From NCBI GenBank assembly GCA_027459775.1, contig DAIDHE010000131.1, forward strand, positions 1-45,114: a DNA stretch of 45,114 bases, given 5' to 3'. Positions 4,007-45,114 of this stretch are shown here, piece after piece. The position numbers were made by a program, and so were the translations under genes. Position 1 is the first letter of the stretch. Each line of letters opens with the position of its first letter. Source of the stretch: Planctomycetales bacterium (GTDB lineage Bacteria; Planctomycetota; Planctomycetia; Isosphaerales; Isosphaeraceae). Under the pieces are notes generated by a model, which made no database searches, was not told the origin of the DNA, and was given only the letters and a program-made list of their open reading frames with translations.

Positions 4007-5233
4007 ATGAATGGCAGTCGACCAGGCTTGCAAAGGGTCAATCGCCGGGCCCTGTTGCTCGGGGCCGCCTTGTATGCGGCCGGTGCGCCGAGCGCGCTCG
4101 CGGCGGGGCTCGATCAAGCCGCGCCGGCCGGCGCGCTCTGGGTGTACGTTGGAACCTACACGAGCGACAAGGGCGAAAAACCCAGTCGCGGCATTTATGT
4201 GATGGAGCTCGACCTGGCCACGGGGGCTTTGTCCAAGCCCCAGCTCGCGGCCGAGAGCATCGACCCGTCGTTCCTGGCGATTCATCCCAGCAAGCGATTT
4301 CTCTACGCTGTCAACGAGGTCGGTCAGTTTCAGGGCCGATCGGGCGGCGGGGTGAGCGGCTTCAGGATCGATCCGGCCGGGGGCTTGCTCAGGCCGATCA
4401 ATCAACAATCGTCGCGCGGCTCGTCGCCATGTCATTTGACCGTCGATCGAGCGGGCAAGAATGTCCTGGTCGCCAACTATGGCTCGGGGAGTGTCGCCTG
4501 CCTGCCGATCGATGCCAACGGGCGTTTGCGGCCGGCGTCGGCCGCGATCCAGCATGAAGGTTCGAGCGTCGACCAGGCCCGCCAACAAGGCCCCCACGCG
4601 CATTCGATCAATATCGACCCCGCGGGCCATTTCGCCGTGGCCGCCGACCTGGGGCTCGACAAGATCCTGATCTACGCCTTCGACTCCGCGGCCGGCTCGC
4701 TCAAGCCCGCGACGCCTCCTTTCGTCAAGCTGCCGCCCGCCTCGGGTCCGCGCCATTTCGCCTTCTCATCCAATGGCCGTTTTGGATACGTCATTGACGA
4801 GCTGGCGAATACGATCGTCGCTTTCGCGCACGACCCTGAAACGGGCGAGCTTTCGCCGCTCCAATCCGTCTCCACGCTTCCGGCCGGCTTTCAGGGAAGG
4901 AGCCACACCGCCCACATCGAGATCCATCCCTCGGGCAAATTCCTCTACGGCTCGAACCGCGGTCACGACAGCATCGCCGTGTTTTCGATCGAGCCCGCGA
5001 CGGGCAAGCTTGCGGCCGTGGCGATCGAGCCCACGTTGGGGAAGGAGCCGCGTAATTTCGCCGTCGACCCCACGGGAACCTACCTGCTGGCCGAGAACCA
5101 GAACTCAAACACAATCGTCGTCTTCCGCGTTGACCCGGAGACCGGCCGACTGCAAGCGACCGGCCAAAAAGCCTCCGTCCCTCGGCCCGTCTGCATCAAG
5201 ATGATCGACAAGCCCCGGGAGCCCGCGCGTTAG
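4007..5233 (+). CDS. Lactonase-family seven-bladed beta-propeller protein (6-phosphogluconolactonase-like)
   Basis: This 408-residue protein starts with a likely Tat or Sec signal (NRRALLLGAA near residues 12-21, then an Ala-rich h-region). The rest is the lactonase beta-propeller fold: WVYVGTYTS at the start, then repeats such as FLAIHPSKRFLYAVNE, GPHAHSINIDPAG and PRNFAVDPTGTYLLAENQNSN. Cytoplasmic YbhE-type members hydrolyse 6-phosphogluconolactone to 6-phosphogluconate. The export signal here argues against that exact role and for an extracytoplasmic sugar lactone or carboxy-cis,cis-muconate-type substrate. The ATG at 4007 is preceded by AGGA. The stop is 3 bp from the SprT-like gene, so the two are probably co-transcribed. 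Confidence 0.85.
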   Translation: MNGSRPGLQRVNRRALLLGAALYAAGAPSALAAGLDQAAPAGALWVYVGTYTSDKGEKPSRGIYVMELDLATGALSKPQLAAESIDPSFLAIHPSKRFLYAVNEVGQFQGRSGGGVSGFRIDPAGGLLRPINQQSSRGSSPCHLTVDRAGKNVLVANYGSGSVACLPIDANGRLRPASAAIQHEGSSVDQARQQGPHAHSINIDPAGHFAVAADLGLDKILIYAFDSAAGSLKPATPPFVKLPPASGPRHFAFSSNGRFGYVIDELANTIVAFAHDPETGELSPLQSVSTLPAGFQGRSHTAHIEIHPSGKFLYGSNRGHDSIAVFSIEPATGKLAAVAIEPTLGKEPRNFAVDPTGTYLLAENQNSNTIVVFRVDPETGRLQATGQKASVPRPVCIKMIDKPREPAR

Positions 5234-39745: not shown

Positions 39746-40174
39746 ATGATCACGATCGAGGGCAAAACGCTGGGCCGCCGCCCGGCGCTCTTCGCCGATT
39801 GGTCGATCCCATTCCCGCCCGAACTTCGCGGCGAGGGAGACAACGTCTCCCTCCGCGACTTGATCACGCGGGTCGTGTGCGCCGAGGTCGAGGCGTTTCG
39901 CCAGCGTCAGGAAGAGCGCAGGCTCGTCCGCGTCCTCTCGGCCGCCGCCATCGAACGAGCGGCGGCCAAGGGCAAGGTCGACATGGGCGGCCGCGCCCTC
40001 GTGCAAGAGGTCGACGCCGAAACGGCCGTCGCCTCGGCCCTTCAGTCGTTTGAAGACGGGATCTACCTCGTCGTCGTCGACGGCGAGGAACAGCGCGACC
40101 TCGACCGCGAGGTCTTCGTGAGACCTGGCAGCCGAATCACGTTCATTCGCCTGACCATGCTTGCGGGGGGTTGA
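39746..40174 (+). CDS. Small Gly-Gly-terminated protein (possible ubiquitin-like/beta-grasp fold), partner of DUF4132
   Basis: This 142-residue cytoplasmic protein has no name that I recognise. It starts with a beta-hairpin-like segment (MITIEGKTLG...DWSIPFP), a long charged helix (SLRDLITRVVCAEVEAFRQ) and an acidic helical insert. It ends with strands YLVVVDGEE, EVFVRPGS and RITFIRLTMLAGG. The C-terminal FIRLTMLAGG after a PGS turn resembles the tails of ubiquitin, ThiS and MoaD. This is pattern resemblance only. The stop lies six bases before the DUF4132 ATG, so they are almost certainly co-transcribed. No E1-, E2- or JAB-like protein is in the window. Confidence 0.75.
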   Translation: MITIEGKTLGRRPALFADWSIPFPPELRGEGDNVSLRDLITRVVCAEVEAFRQRQEERRLVRVLSAAAIERAAAKGKVDMGGRALVQEVDAETAVASALQSFEDGIYLVVVDGEEQRDLDREVFVRPGSRITFIRLTMLAGG

Positions 40175-40180
40175 GCCAGA

Positions 40181-43100
40181 ATGTTGACCGATGAGCAAGC
40201 CCGAGCCGCCCTCGCCAAGCTCCGCGACGTGGAAGGGTGGACGACCCAGCGGCTGGCGGCGCTGGCGAAACTCGAGCCCCCGGTTCGCGAGCTGGGCCGG
40301 ATCCTGGTCGGAAGCAACCGCGAAGGCGAGGCTGCTCCCGATTCGGTTTCGGCCTGGCTTGCGCTGCAGGCCAGTGACACAGCCCTTCTCGATCAGATTT
40401 CCGACGATGAGCGCCGTTCGCTCTGGAAGACCCTTTTTCCAGGGCTGGCCGACACGCTCGACCAGGCCTGGCGGCTTCAGGGTCGCCTTCCTTACCAATG
40501 GGGATATCAGCGTAAGTCGTTCCGCGCCCCGCGCCATCCCGAGCTCACGAGCGCGAGCCGATTTGAGTGGGTGAAATCGGTCGTCGACGAGATCAAGGGC
40601 TACGATCCCGACGTGGAATGGATCGCGGCTTGGGCCGCCCACCTGGAGTTCTATCACCAGAACAAGCTCGGAATCGTGCTGGCCGCCGCGATCGATTCAG
40701 GGGGCGAAACCGGAGATGAGGTCTTTCGGATCCTGGTCGACTCCGCTCGAGGTACGCACGAGATCGGCGCCATGGGCCGCCATGTCATAAGCGCTCTCCT
40801 GGTCGCGTCACGTCCGGAGGGTTGGGCATTTATTGAAAAGATGTTGCTGGCCGCCCAGCGCGAAGAGGGGCTGAGGCATTCCATCCTGCAAACGATCAAT
40901 GAAGCGCATCCCGAGGCGTTTCGGCGGATGCTACGCCTGATCCGCGAGCATGACCTGGCCCGCTTCAGCTCGACGGTTCTGGCAGTCAATGAATGGTTTG
41001 ACTTCGCGTGGGACTCGGCGGCCGTCAAGCCGGTGAACGCCGCGATCGAGCAGGTGTTGCTTTTTCTCGACGACGAGAAGGCTCGAGCTCAAGCCATCCA
41101 GAGCGGCCCAGCCGAGTCGGCGTACCTGGCTCTTTGGACTCTTGGCTTCGAGGACGCCGTCGCGGCGGCGGAGGCGGCCGCGGGTCTGCTGGCCGACCCC
41201 GACGTGGAGCGGCGGTTCGTCGCCGTCCACTTGCTCGCCCAGGTCGGCGCCAGTTCCGCCCGGGCACATTTGGCGCGCGGGATCGACGATCCCGACCTCC
41301 GAGTCGCCGAGAGGGCGCGGACGGCGATCAGTGCGCAATTGGGGGTCGTCAAGACTCCGCCGCCCGAGGGTGCGTTCGAGGCTCTCGAGCGGTTGCTCGA
41401 GCGCGCCCCCGCGAAAGCCAAGGTGCTCCCGGCGATCGTCTGGCCCTGGCAAATCCTCACGGTCGTCCCGGACCTGATTAGCGGCGACCTCCCCAGATTC
41501 CTCGGCGCTCGACCTCCCACGGCCTTGATTCCACACCTCGAGCGCATGGATCCCGGCTGTCGCCGGAGAGCAGCGCGAATGCTCGGAGCCCAGCGCCAGT
41601 GGGATGCGGCGACACGCGCGACGCTGCTGGAGCTGGTCGGTGACAAAAGTCCCGGGGTATCCAAGGAAGCCGTGAACGCGTTTGGTCGCTTTCATGCGAC
41701 GCCTGGCGAGGCGAAACGTCTGGAGGGGCTCCTGACTCACACGGCGGGGAACTGGGGACTGGCCCTGCTCGAGCGGCTGGAGGATCTGAAAGACGAAGAG
41801 TTCTTGGCGGACATCGATCGATCGCCGGCCTTGGCCGGCGCCGTGAGCCCCCCGGATGGCAAGGACACCGCGAACGTGACGGCTCGCTCACACCTGACGC
41901 CGGCCGAGGCGGAGCATCTGGAGAGCCTCTTGACGCGCAAGTCGGGCCACCTGCGCCTGGGGGTGCTCGGCCTGTTGGCAAGCCAGGACGACGACGCAGC
42001 CCTGGCAAGCGCCGATCGACTCCTGAAAGCGGCCAAGCGTGAACCGGGGCTGGGTGGCCTGGAACTCCTTCGCGTCCTGGCCCAGACCGACCGCCGGGTC
42101 GCGGATTGCCACGCCCTCGCCCGGGCGCGCCGCCACCAAAAGATCGGCTCCGAGGAAGAACGAGTCATCGACACGATCCTCGCCACTGGGCGAAAAACCC
42201 CCACTCTCGACGACGCTCTGGGCCTGCTCCAAGGCTTGACGCGTTCCCAACCCTGGCAACCCCAGCCCCGAGAACGCGTCTACGCCACGCCGACCGCCAT
42301 CGCCATTCTCCAGTCTTTGGATGAGTTGATCCATGTGAACCGAGAACGGATTATTACGATCACTCCTTGGGATACAACGCAAGAGGAACTCCTCGGCAAC
42401 GTCGGTTATCGATTCCCCCATCCCATTCCCCATCTCGATCCCGCCGTCGACCGCGCTCGACTCCCGCTTTGCGAGCTCTGGGAAACCTGGTTGCGCGACC
42501 GACCCCCCCAGCTCCGCGATGACGACGGGCTCGAGATGCTTCGCGCCATGATTCTGCCTCGCATCGATTGCGCCGCCGCTTGGGTCAAGGACAAGTCCGC
42601 GCCCCGCTTCCTCGAGATCGTGGGATCCCCGCCCGAGCAGCCTTTACGCTATCTGTCGGCCGTCAGCGCAATCGCGTTCTGGCTGGTCCGCCTTCATCCG
42701 CCGCCAGGGGGCGTCGACTACCTGATCGACGCACTCGAGACCTTGTGCGCGCGGATGCCGATGGAAACCCTGACGCCCACTCGACAGCAAACCGAAACGT
42801 CAGGGCCGTTCAGCGGCCTTCTGAACCAGATCCGCTGGTATCACTTGATCGAACACGAATCGTGGACCCTCGATCAAGAGGCGCGGTTCTGGGGCCTGCT
42901 CCGCTGGGTGGACGAGCCCGTCCCCGGCGTCGAGCGGGCGCGCCCGAAGTTGCAAGACGTGGCACGGGCCCTGCGGTTGGGCCTAGCGACCGAGGCCGAT
43001 CTGATCGACCACCTTCTCCGCCCCGCTCCTGGATTCGATCGCTTCCACGACCTGAGCGACCTGACGAGAAAAAAGCCCGCCAAGGAACTGGAGCGATGGC

Positions 43101-44977
43101 ACGTTCTCGTCCCCGTGATCGATCGCTGCAAGCGACGCATCCTGGAGGTCGAGCTCGAGCGCGGCGAACATCCCACGGCCGCGAGCGGGCCCGCGCTCGC
43201 GATCCAGTCGCTCACCGGCGCCCAGACCGTGATCCAGATCCTGGTCGCACTCGGCCGCGATTCTTTTGAGCGCGGTCATTTCATGAGGGGCGTCGCTCGA
43301 TCCTCCGTATTTGGCCACCTGGTCCGCGTCTGCTTCCCCGCCGAATCCGACACCCCGGAATCGTTTGCCGATCAAGCCCAAAACGCGGGGATTTCCCAGA
43401 CCCGCCTGGTCGAGCTGGCGGTTTACGCACCACAGTGGTCGGGGTTCGTCGAGCAGGCGTTGGGCTGGAAAATGCTCGCGGAAGCGGTCTGGTGGCTGCA
43501 CGCCCACACCAAGGACTCGGCCTGGAGCGTCGATCATCAGATACGCGCGGTCTGGGGCGCCGAAGTCGCCCAGCGCACCGCGCTGGGCGCCGCCGACCTG
43601 CTCGACGGCGCGGTCGACGTCGCGTGGTTCCAGCGGGTTCGCGTTTCGCTGGGCCTCGAGCGCTGGGCCGCGGTCGACCTTGCCGCTCGATACGCCTCCA
43701 GCGGCGCGGGCCACAAGCGCGCCCAGATCTTCGCCGACGCCATGCTGGGGAATCTCAAGAAGGCTGATCTGATCGGCCGCATCGACAAATCGCGCCACCC
43801 CGACTCGCTCCGCGCCCTGGGCCTGCTCCCCTTGGGCCGGGGGGCGGCGCGGTCCAAGGATCTGCTCAATCGGTATAAGTTTATTCAGGAATTCATCAGA
43901 ACAAGCAAGCAATTCGGCGCGCAGCGTCAGGCCAGCGAAAAGCGCGCCGCCGCGATCGCGCTTGTGAATCTGGCGCGGACGGCCGGGTATCCCGACCCGA
44001 CGCGGTTGGAATGGGCCATGGAAGCCCAGGCCGTCGGCGACCTGGCCGAGGGTCCGGTCGTGGTCGAGGCCGAAGGCGTCGCCGTGACGCTGGCGCTCGA
44101 CGCCGACGGCCATGCCGAGCTCGGCGTCGCGCGCGGCGGCAAGCCGCTCAAAACGATCCCGCCAGCCGTCAAGAAAGACCCGCGCATCGCCGAGCTGCTC
44201 GCCCGCCGCGACGAATTGAAGCGGCAGGCGACGCGGATCCGGCTCTCGCTCGAGCAAGCGATGTGCCGCGGCGACGGCTTCAGCGGCGCGGAGCTGCGCG
44301 ACCTCTCCGCTCACCCCGTGCTGGCGCCCTCGCTGGCCCGGTTGATCTTGATTGGCGAGGGGATCGCCGGCTATTCCGTCGAGGGGGGCAGGGGCCTCCG
44401 CGACCACGCCGGACACATCGAGCCGATCAAGCCCGACGAATCCCTGCGGATCGCCCATCCCCACGATCTGCTCGCCCTGGGCGACTGGAGCCGCTGGCAG
44501 GCGGAGTGCTTCCGATCAAAGCGCATTCAGCCGTTCAAGCAAGTGTTTCGCGAGCTTTACGTGCTGACCGAGACCGAGCAATCCGACGGAACGGGCACGA
44601 GGCGTTACGCCGGCCAGCAGGTGCATCCGCGGCAGGCGCTCGCGCTTCTGAGCGCGCGGGGCTGGGTCAACCACCCCGAGGAAGGGGTTAGGCGCACTTT
44701 TCACGAGGCCGGCCTGACGGCCAGCGTGGAGTTTCTCGAGGGAATCTTCACGCCGGCCGAGGTCGAGGGCTTGACCATCGATCGGGTTCACTTCGTTCGT
44801 AGGGGCGACTGGAAGCCGGCGCCTCTGAGCGAAGTCCCTCCACGAGTTTTCAGCGAGGCGATGCGCGACCTGGACCTGGTGGCGAGCGTCGCGCATCGGG
44901 GCGGCATCGATCCCGAGGCGAGCGTCTCCACGATCGAGAGCCGGTCCGCGCTCTTGCGTGAGACCTGCTCGCTGCTT
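40181..44977 (+). CDS. Giant DUF4132 (MolR/YehI-like) protein, 3' end cut off by an IS element
   Basis: A single frame from the ATG at 40181 is open with no stop to the window end; about 1,599 codons appear native. The N-terminal two thirds look like HEAT/ARM-type helical repeats (for example VERRFVAVHLLAQVGASSARAHLARGID-type blocks). The C-terminal part has the DUF4132 signatures QPFKQVFRELYVLT, HPRQALALL, RGWVNHPEEGV, PPRVFSEAMRDLDLV, AHRGGIDPEAS and ALLRETCSLL. Intact members then continue for about 70-90 residues ending in an RxHLGSGN-type beta region; that part is missing. The frame instead runs into a transposase. E. coli YehI and MolR are relatives, and such proteins occur in MoxR-VWA gene clusters. 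The start has no strong ribosome site but is six bases from the upstream gene. Confidence 0.8.
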
Positions 44978-44978
44978 A

Positions 44979-45114
44979 GAGGTCGTCTAGAAAGCCATGG
45001 CAAAAGATGTTATGGCGGCGTCATGGACGCCAGAAACAGGTACGACACGGACGTTTCCGATGCCGAGTGGGCTCAGCTCGTGCGGGTGATTCCCGCACCC
45101 AAGCCCGGCGGCAG
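44979..45114 (+). mobile_element. Left end of an IS5-family insertion sequence (partial)
   Basis: From about 44979 the sequence stops matching DUF4132 and begins GAGGTCGTCTAGAAAG, which resembles IS5-family (IS1031-type) terminal repeats. It is directly preceded by TTA (44976-44978), matching the TNA target preferred by that group. The transposase start follows 44 bases later. The other end and the second target copy are outside the window, so the boundary is inferred from sequence change and resemblance. Confidence 0.7.
45023..45114 (+). CDS. IS5-family transposase, N-terminal part (partial)
   Basis: An ATG at 45023 opens a frame reading MDARNRYDTDVSDAEWAQL then IPAPKPGG to the window edge. 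The segment YDTDVSDAEWAQL followed by a P-x-P-K-PGG turn is the typical start of IS5-family DDE transposases (compare YPSDLTDAEWALL in others). The catalytic DDE core lies to the right of the window. It is in the same frame as the interrupted DUF4132 gene, so a naive call would fuse the two. Confidence 0.75.
   Translation, partial: MDARNRYDTDVSDAEWAQLVRVIPAPKPGG

Follow-up and report, generated by a model that had tools for sequence, protein, structure and literature searches.

What does a small protein ending in two glycines do when its gene lies directly ahead of a giant DUF4132 gene, and is it a ubiquitin-like (Ubl) protein, as an initial annotation of this DNA had proposed? The pair is located near the right end of the window, by which we mean the whole stretch of 45,114 bp analysed here, contig DAIDHE010000131.1 of the Planctomycetales bacterium assembly GCA_027459775.1 (contig 33 of a 494-contig draft genome). 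The small open reading frame (ORF; 39746..40174, + strand) encodes a protein of 142 amino acids (aa) with the C-terminus RPGSRITFIRLTMLAGG, directly followed by the stop codon; the terminal Gly-Gly (GG) codons occupy positions 40166..40171 (+). Six bases (40175-40180) separate the ORF from the ATG of the large gene at 40181, and coordinates and translation thus agree with the Gly-Gly end and the six-base distance first described. Judged from sequence conservation the ORF is a real gene, because homologs are found in other genomes at the same position, with identities of 69% in a genome of the same family (G026), 63% in a Pirellulales metagenome-assembled genome (MAG) and 46% in a Thermoflexus MAG. 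None of the Pfam and NCBIfam models names or covers the 142-aa protein, which is predicted from its homologs and an AlphaFold2 model to be a Ubl-fold protein of the DRA0165/SEP068184 type, named after the homolog of Deinococcus radiodurans.

The small protein is very probably a near-obligate partner of one class of DUF4132 proteins, those carrying the DUF7737 domain (PF24879) in which full-length partners end. Its homologs occur in seven phyla (Planctomycetota, Bacillota, Chloroflexota (the Thermoflexus MAG), Deinococcota, Bacteroidota, Actinomycetota and Pseudomonadota), and nearly all of their loci possess an adjacent DUF4132 gene on the same strand, either upstream or downstream, the adjacency being retained in loci with swapped gene order (L041, L049, L052 and L072). 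Among 299 Bacillota genomes, Ubl and DUF7737 are present in exactly the same seven, adjacent to each other (p 2.5e-14); among 392 Planctomycetota genomes, 19 of the 20 with Ubl belong to the 24 with DUF7737 (p 8e-27); and in 59 relatives the Ubl gene stands beside 13/14 intact DUF4132 loci with DUF7737 and beside 0/13 without it (p 7e-7), all three p-values overstating independence since the genomes share ancestry. The DUF4132-domain tree provides a single independent contrast between the DUF7737 and non-DUF7737 classes. E. coli yehI, which encodes a DUF4132 protein without DUF7737, has no Ubl. The obligate DUF4132 partnership of the initial annotation is therefore upheld as a near-obligate one, adjacent in nearly all of the collected loci with few exceptions, and is narrowed to DUF4132 proteins that carry DUF7737. 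No conserved third gene was found in the loci inspected, the neighbours differing from locus to locus. Orphan Ubls having no DUF4132 partner were found in three genomes (G025, G047 and G154); in two of them (G025 and G047) the tail glycines are lost (VCC, DRP, VAG).

Several loci are of interest in their own right. A tandem pair of orphan Ubl-like genes at L048 (G025:C1, 9679-10874) has no DUF4132 neighbour and shows degenerated tails (VCC and DRP). At L102 (G154:C260, 2260-2421), a weak Ubl-like C-terminal match ending in VAGG, likewise with no DUF4132, follows a 465-aa gene and an HPr-kinase-like fragment and possibly belongs to a different Ubl context. In related planctomycetes, two or three DUF4132 genes stand in tandem (L121, G025:C1 1579555-1586147, and L120, G034:C35), with neither DUF7737 nor Ubl. 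A sister species of the same genus (L053/L037, G001:C104, about 4090-4410) retains nothing but decayed pieces of the Ubl, with an internal TGA, and of DUF7737, which suggests that it lost the module recently. A partial Ubl C-terminal match in Fusobacterium vincentii (H8, NZ_CP084075.1, 1063784-1063927; 48% over 52 aa) possibly represents an eighth phylum.

A ubiquitin/MoaD (beta-grasp) fold is likely for the small protein, though not proven. The AlphaFold2 model, built from 18 sequences, has a mean predicted local distance difference test score (pLDDT) of 76.6; the score is near 90 in the first helix and between residues 90 and 130, and low within the insert and at the final residues. Its elements are arranged in the order strand-strand-helix-insert-strand-strand-strand-strand (strands 2-8 and 19-21/32-35, helix 36-59, insert, strands 107-111, 114-116, 122-125 and 130-135), followed by a disordered tail. 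When compared with the PDB using VIA-align, the 50 best rows are essentially all beta-grasp/Ubl folds, spanning residues 1-140, with the MoaD-type human MOCS2A at the top (Z 7.7, 79 aligned, 3.3 Å), followed by SAMP1 (6.2), a Pyrococcus furiosus MoaD-type protein (6.2), ubiquitin (6.1), Urm1 (6.1) and ThiS (5.7); the reported Z range of these best matches is 5.6-7.7. Model and structural alignment are in agreement with the beta-grasp order and inserted helical region read from the sequence at the outset, and ubiquitin, ThiS and MoaD are all among the best folds. When PDB sequences were searched with the profile of the Ubl, nothing fell under E 0.6, the ThiS profile PF02597 matched 0/30 members of the family, and a ThiS search of the genome of the window did not return its contig. 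Comparison of the Ubl profile with MoaD and ThiS by hhalign was not significant (Prob 8%), and homology at the sequence level was rejected on this basis; both partial alignments are nevertheless in the Ubl register. This register, together with the structural matches of the D. radiodurans homolog to 5MPO, 3PO0, 1VJK and similar entries obtained by an earlier group (PMC9650054), agrees with the predicted fold. The protein thus resembles MoaD, ThiS, Urm1 and SAMP in its predicted beta-grasp fold and, in most lineages, its C-terminal Gly-Gly, and differs from them by a helical insertion of ~45 residues, the missing Pfam ThiS match, the lack of a MoaE or E1 neighbour and the existence of one clade without GG.

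The tail of the protein was surveyed in 66 Ubl rows, 38 of which terminate exactly in GG with no residue beyond, whereas in all rows from Bacillota and Bacteroidota L[AST]G either is the very end or precedes RMW, RLW, W or a few other residues (for example AG-RMW, GW, SG or TG). In 29 of 30 aligned homologs the first Gly (aa 141) is conserved, whether or not a second Gly follows it; the second is kept, with few exceptions, only outside Bacillota and Bacteroidota. On the DUF4132-domain tree, both deep clades (the long form, with DUF5724, and the short form) include GG tails, and three changes suffice: a single loss in the Bacillota/Bacteroidota clade plus two minor losses among planctomycetes. 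The GG tail is probably old; its exact end is retained over five phyla, while the Bacillota/Bacteroidota clade dispenses with it yet keeps the partner. Whether the terminal GG is invariant had been posed as a check in the initial annotation; survey and tree together show that it is not. Since the partner is the same with and without GG, conjugation cannot be the function shared by the family; sulfur transfer likewise cannot, both being possible in the GG lineages.

Could the protein nevertheless be a true conjugated modifier? Its GG would be adenylated by a housekeeping MoeB/ThiF-type E1, and under stress the Ubl would be attached to targets by the DUF4132-DUF7737 protein, acting as the ligase or the receptor; Bacillota and Bacteroidota would have lost conjugation or would trim the tail. 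The exact GG of the 38 rows, spread over both deep clades with so few changes, argues for such a role, as does the D. radiodurans JAMM protease, which cleaves a MoaD-MoaE fusion (PMC8832034). ThiF-family E1-like genes are present in all 19 Ubl genomes tested, but their matches lie on other contigs or far off in all 16 planctomycetes and 3 clostridia, never near the Ubl, and no JAB, E2 or E3 genes were seen in the neighbourhoods of about a dozen inspected loci. The initial annotation, which had noted no visible conjugation enzymes, therefore holds beyond this genome: neither E1, JAB nor MoxR genes were found nearby when sought in the loci of other genomes. In addition, a whole clade without GG retains the same partner, and the alignment of long-form partners contains no near-invariant Cys, which makes thioester transfer by the partner unlikely. 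On balance we regard conjugation as unlikely. The prokaryotic Ubl-E1-JAB and FtsH-ternary/CBASS Ubl systems resemble the present pair in combining a small Ubl with a partner of the stress or conflict type; they differ in that E1, E2, RING and JAB are absent from the loci examined here. Distinctly doubtful, too, is a minimal two-gene bacterial Ubl system, in which a shared E1 would activate the GG-tailed Ubl, the DUF4132-DUF7737 protein would serve as ligase or receptor, DNA damage would induce both, and one clade would secondarily have made the modifier a fixed subunit.

The similarity to MoaD also raises the question of a sulfur carrier, with a C-terminus thiocarboxylated as in MoaD, ThiS or TtuB that would feed sulfur to a reaction involving DUF4132. 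The nearest folds (MoaD, SAMP1, Urm1 and ThiS), the position of the D. radiodurans locus near modA and the history of DUF4132 proteins as E. coli molR (cited in PMC8533742) point in this direction. MoaE, however, is missing from 6/25 Ubl genomes, including G189, a 99% complete planctomycete in one contig, and Clostridioides difficile CD160, and the occurrence of the pair without MoaE weakens a molybdopterin role, which we do not retain. As the Bacillota/Bacteroidota clade has no GG, the ThiS profile misses the Ubl, and D. radiodurans moeA and moeB are not DdrO-responsive (PMC8533742), a sulfur carrier is improbable.

DUF4132 had also been linked, in the initial annotation, to MoxR-VWA conflict systems. 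In E. coli, yehI does adjoin yehL and yehP, and YehI, which is accompanied by YehL (MoxR), YehP (VWA) and YehQ (SWIM), shares the DUF4132 domain with the partner described here; it lacks DUF7737 and a Ubl. Near the Ubl-DUF4132 loci, no homologs of YehL, YehM, YehP or YehQ were found with the E. coli proteins as queries, and neighbouring MoxR, VWA or SWIM genes were accordingly rejected as part of the module. DUF4132 goes unmentioned in Kaur et al. 2020 (PMC7159879), and the proposed link is not supported for this module. Searches of viral contigs yielded no homolog, and the PADLOC anti-phage profiles gave zero matches at E 0.1. GAP1-N2, a domain counted among the parts of NTP-dependent conflict systems, is carried by the neighbour of a Ubl-DUF4132 pair at a single locus (L042, 11419-12471).

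The homologous pair of D. radiodurans, drA0165 (SEP068184)-drA0166, follows pstB-phoU-trxC and has the same gene order and GG tail as the pair of the window. DRA0165 is 29% identical to a clostridial query, ends in LRLTALAGG and is encoded directly upstream of the DUF5724-DUF4132-DUF7737 gene drA0166. For drA0165, a radiation/desiccation response motif (RDRM) is listed at -83; the pair is strongly up on DdrO depletion, and the DRA0166 protein rises after mitomycin C in an IrrE-dependent manner (Cells 2021, PMC8533742). A second study (MCP 2022, PMC9650054) denies an RDRM at drA0165, a statement contradicted by PMC8533742 and by the D. radiodurans sequence, where the motif GGTTATGCTATTTACATAAC is read upstream of drA0165 (L103, upstream of 7986). 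In the same study, DRA0165 is cytoplasmic, is raised by peroxide and gamma rays and was pulled down with Trx1, and deletion of drA0165 increased peroxide survival; the protein was predicted to be MoaD-like and considered limited to Deinococcus, and the GG tail, ubiquitin and an obligate DUF4132 partner go unremarked. The homologs found here contradict the published limit: by sequence, the DRA0165 family is not restricted to Deinococcus.

These data also bear on a toxin-antitoxin-like pair, in which the small upstream protein would restrain a harmful DUF4132 protein. The small gene is mostly upstream and tightly linked, and cells depleted of DdrO for long die an apoptotic-like death (PMC8533742). 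Cells without drA0165, however, are viable, transcribe DRA0166 at an unaltered level and survive peroxide better (PMC9650054), the opposite of antitoxin loss; with no PADLOC match either, we give this explanation little credence.

We favour the explanation that the Ubl is a dedicated non-covalent subunit of the DUF4132-DUF7737 protein, together forming a stress-induced regulator, and assign this mechanism as a whole a probability of about 50%. The two proteins would be co-expressed and form a direct complex, in which the Ubl would dock on the C-terminal DUF4132-DUF7737 module; this module would hold the flexible L-x-G(-G) tail, much as the tail of MoaD enters MoaE but with no need for activation, and the tail would serve for anchoring or regulation. 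The complex may act as a stress-responsive regulator; in D. radiodurans, DNA damage switches the pair on via DdrO/IrrE, and the Ubl lowers peroxide survival. The proposed complex is based on the DUF7737 linkage, the swapped gene orders, the decay of the orphans and the conserved first Gly; the gene, its predicted fold, the near-obligate linkage and the tail distribution stem from the present analysis, and DdrO control, damage induction and the peroxide phenotype were shown by others in D. radiodurans. An assembly or folding chaperone needed solely for the maturation of the giant partner would also be consistent with the strict linkage and with orphans losing sequence constraint; as it leaves the conserved tail glycine unexplained, it seems a poor candidate.

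A number of observations weigh against the subunit model. With respect to the fold, Foldseek E-values are weak (>0.1; ThiS 0.12, human MOCS2A 0.24) and all structural Z-scores of the small protein are below 8. The strict exact terminal GG over five phyla exceeds what simple docking obviously needs. DUF7737 occurs without an adjacent Ubl in a second gene of G015 (G015:C79) and in diverged genes of G300 and G397; further exceptions are a DUF7737 gene at a contig edge in G132 and, in G007, another that is broken. Deinococcus is the sole group in which DNA-damage control was found: in the upstream regions of 56 loci, LexA-type boxes do not exceed the level of shuffled sequence, only the Deinococcus RDRM standing out, and a conserved SOS control of the module was rejected. 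The DRA0165 co-immunoprecipitation, in the accessible part of PMC9650054, names Trx1 (DRA0164) and not DRA0166.

The giant partner gene of the window (40181..44978, +) encodes a HEAT/DUF5724-DUF4132 protein and is interrupted near its C-terminus. Profile searches identify HEAT_2, DUF5724 (aa 565-1280, 41873..44020, +, E 5e-196) and DUF4132 (PF13569, aa 1320-1495, 44138..44665, +, E 8e-43; 146.9 bits versus a curated cut-off of 27), the latter containing a QPFKQxxRE motif conserved in every partner. To our knowledge, no function has been described for DUF4132, DUF5724 or DUF7737. A structural model of the DUF4132-DUF7737 region of the partner is good (pLDDT 80) and has no convincing match in the PDB, the best being YugN (Z 8.2 over 101 residues), which likely reflects just a common arrangement. 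The gene is cut just ahead of DUF7737 by an insertion sequence (IS), of which the left end, a terminal inverted repeat of 19-20 bp followed by the start of a transposase-like frame, is located at 44979..45114 (+), adjoining a likely 3-bp target duplication (TTA, 44976..44978). As first described, the right flank is disrupted and cut off: the frame enters the IS, and the contig stops inside it at 45114. A further contig of this genome opens with a matching IS end and then carries the missing C-terminus with DUF7737 (G000:C186:135-401), so that, as read from the assembly, the partner gene is split in this genome, at least in the assembled population; in G026, which has the 69% identical Ubl, the partner is intact. 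On G000:C186 (L114), the IS counterpart occupies positions 1-136, and a tandem second copy of the DUF4132 gene (468-2522; same N-terminus, a frame of 684 aa), with no Ubl of its own, begins behind the end of the interrupted gene.

A Ubl fold, DUF4132 and the MoaD-like prediction for DRA0165 were each already known separately; the widespread and specific Ubl-DUF4132-DUF7737 two-gene module is undescribed in the literature searched, in which nothing was found on DUF7737/PF24879, DUF5724 or a link between Ubl and DUF4132. DRA0165, earlier thought to be private to Deinococcus, is the sole characterised member of the small family. Its linkage in at least seven phyla gives DUF4132, DUF5724 and DUF7737 a common frame and names their partner, and the stress phenotype of D. 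radiodurans offers a testable entry to a widespread module in a tractable, radiation-resistant organism, where comparing the naturally occurring GG and AG-RMW tails may distinguish a tail used for chemistry from one used for docking.

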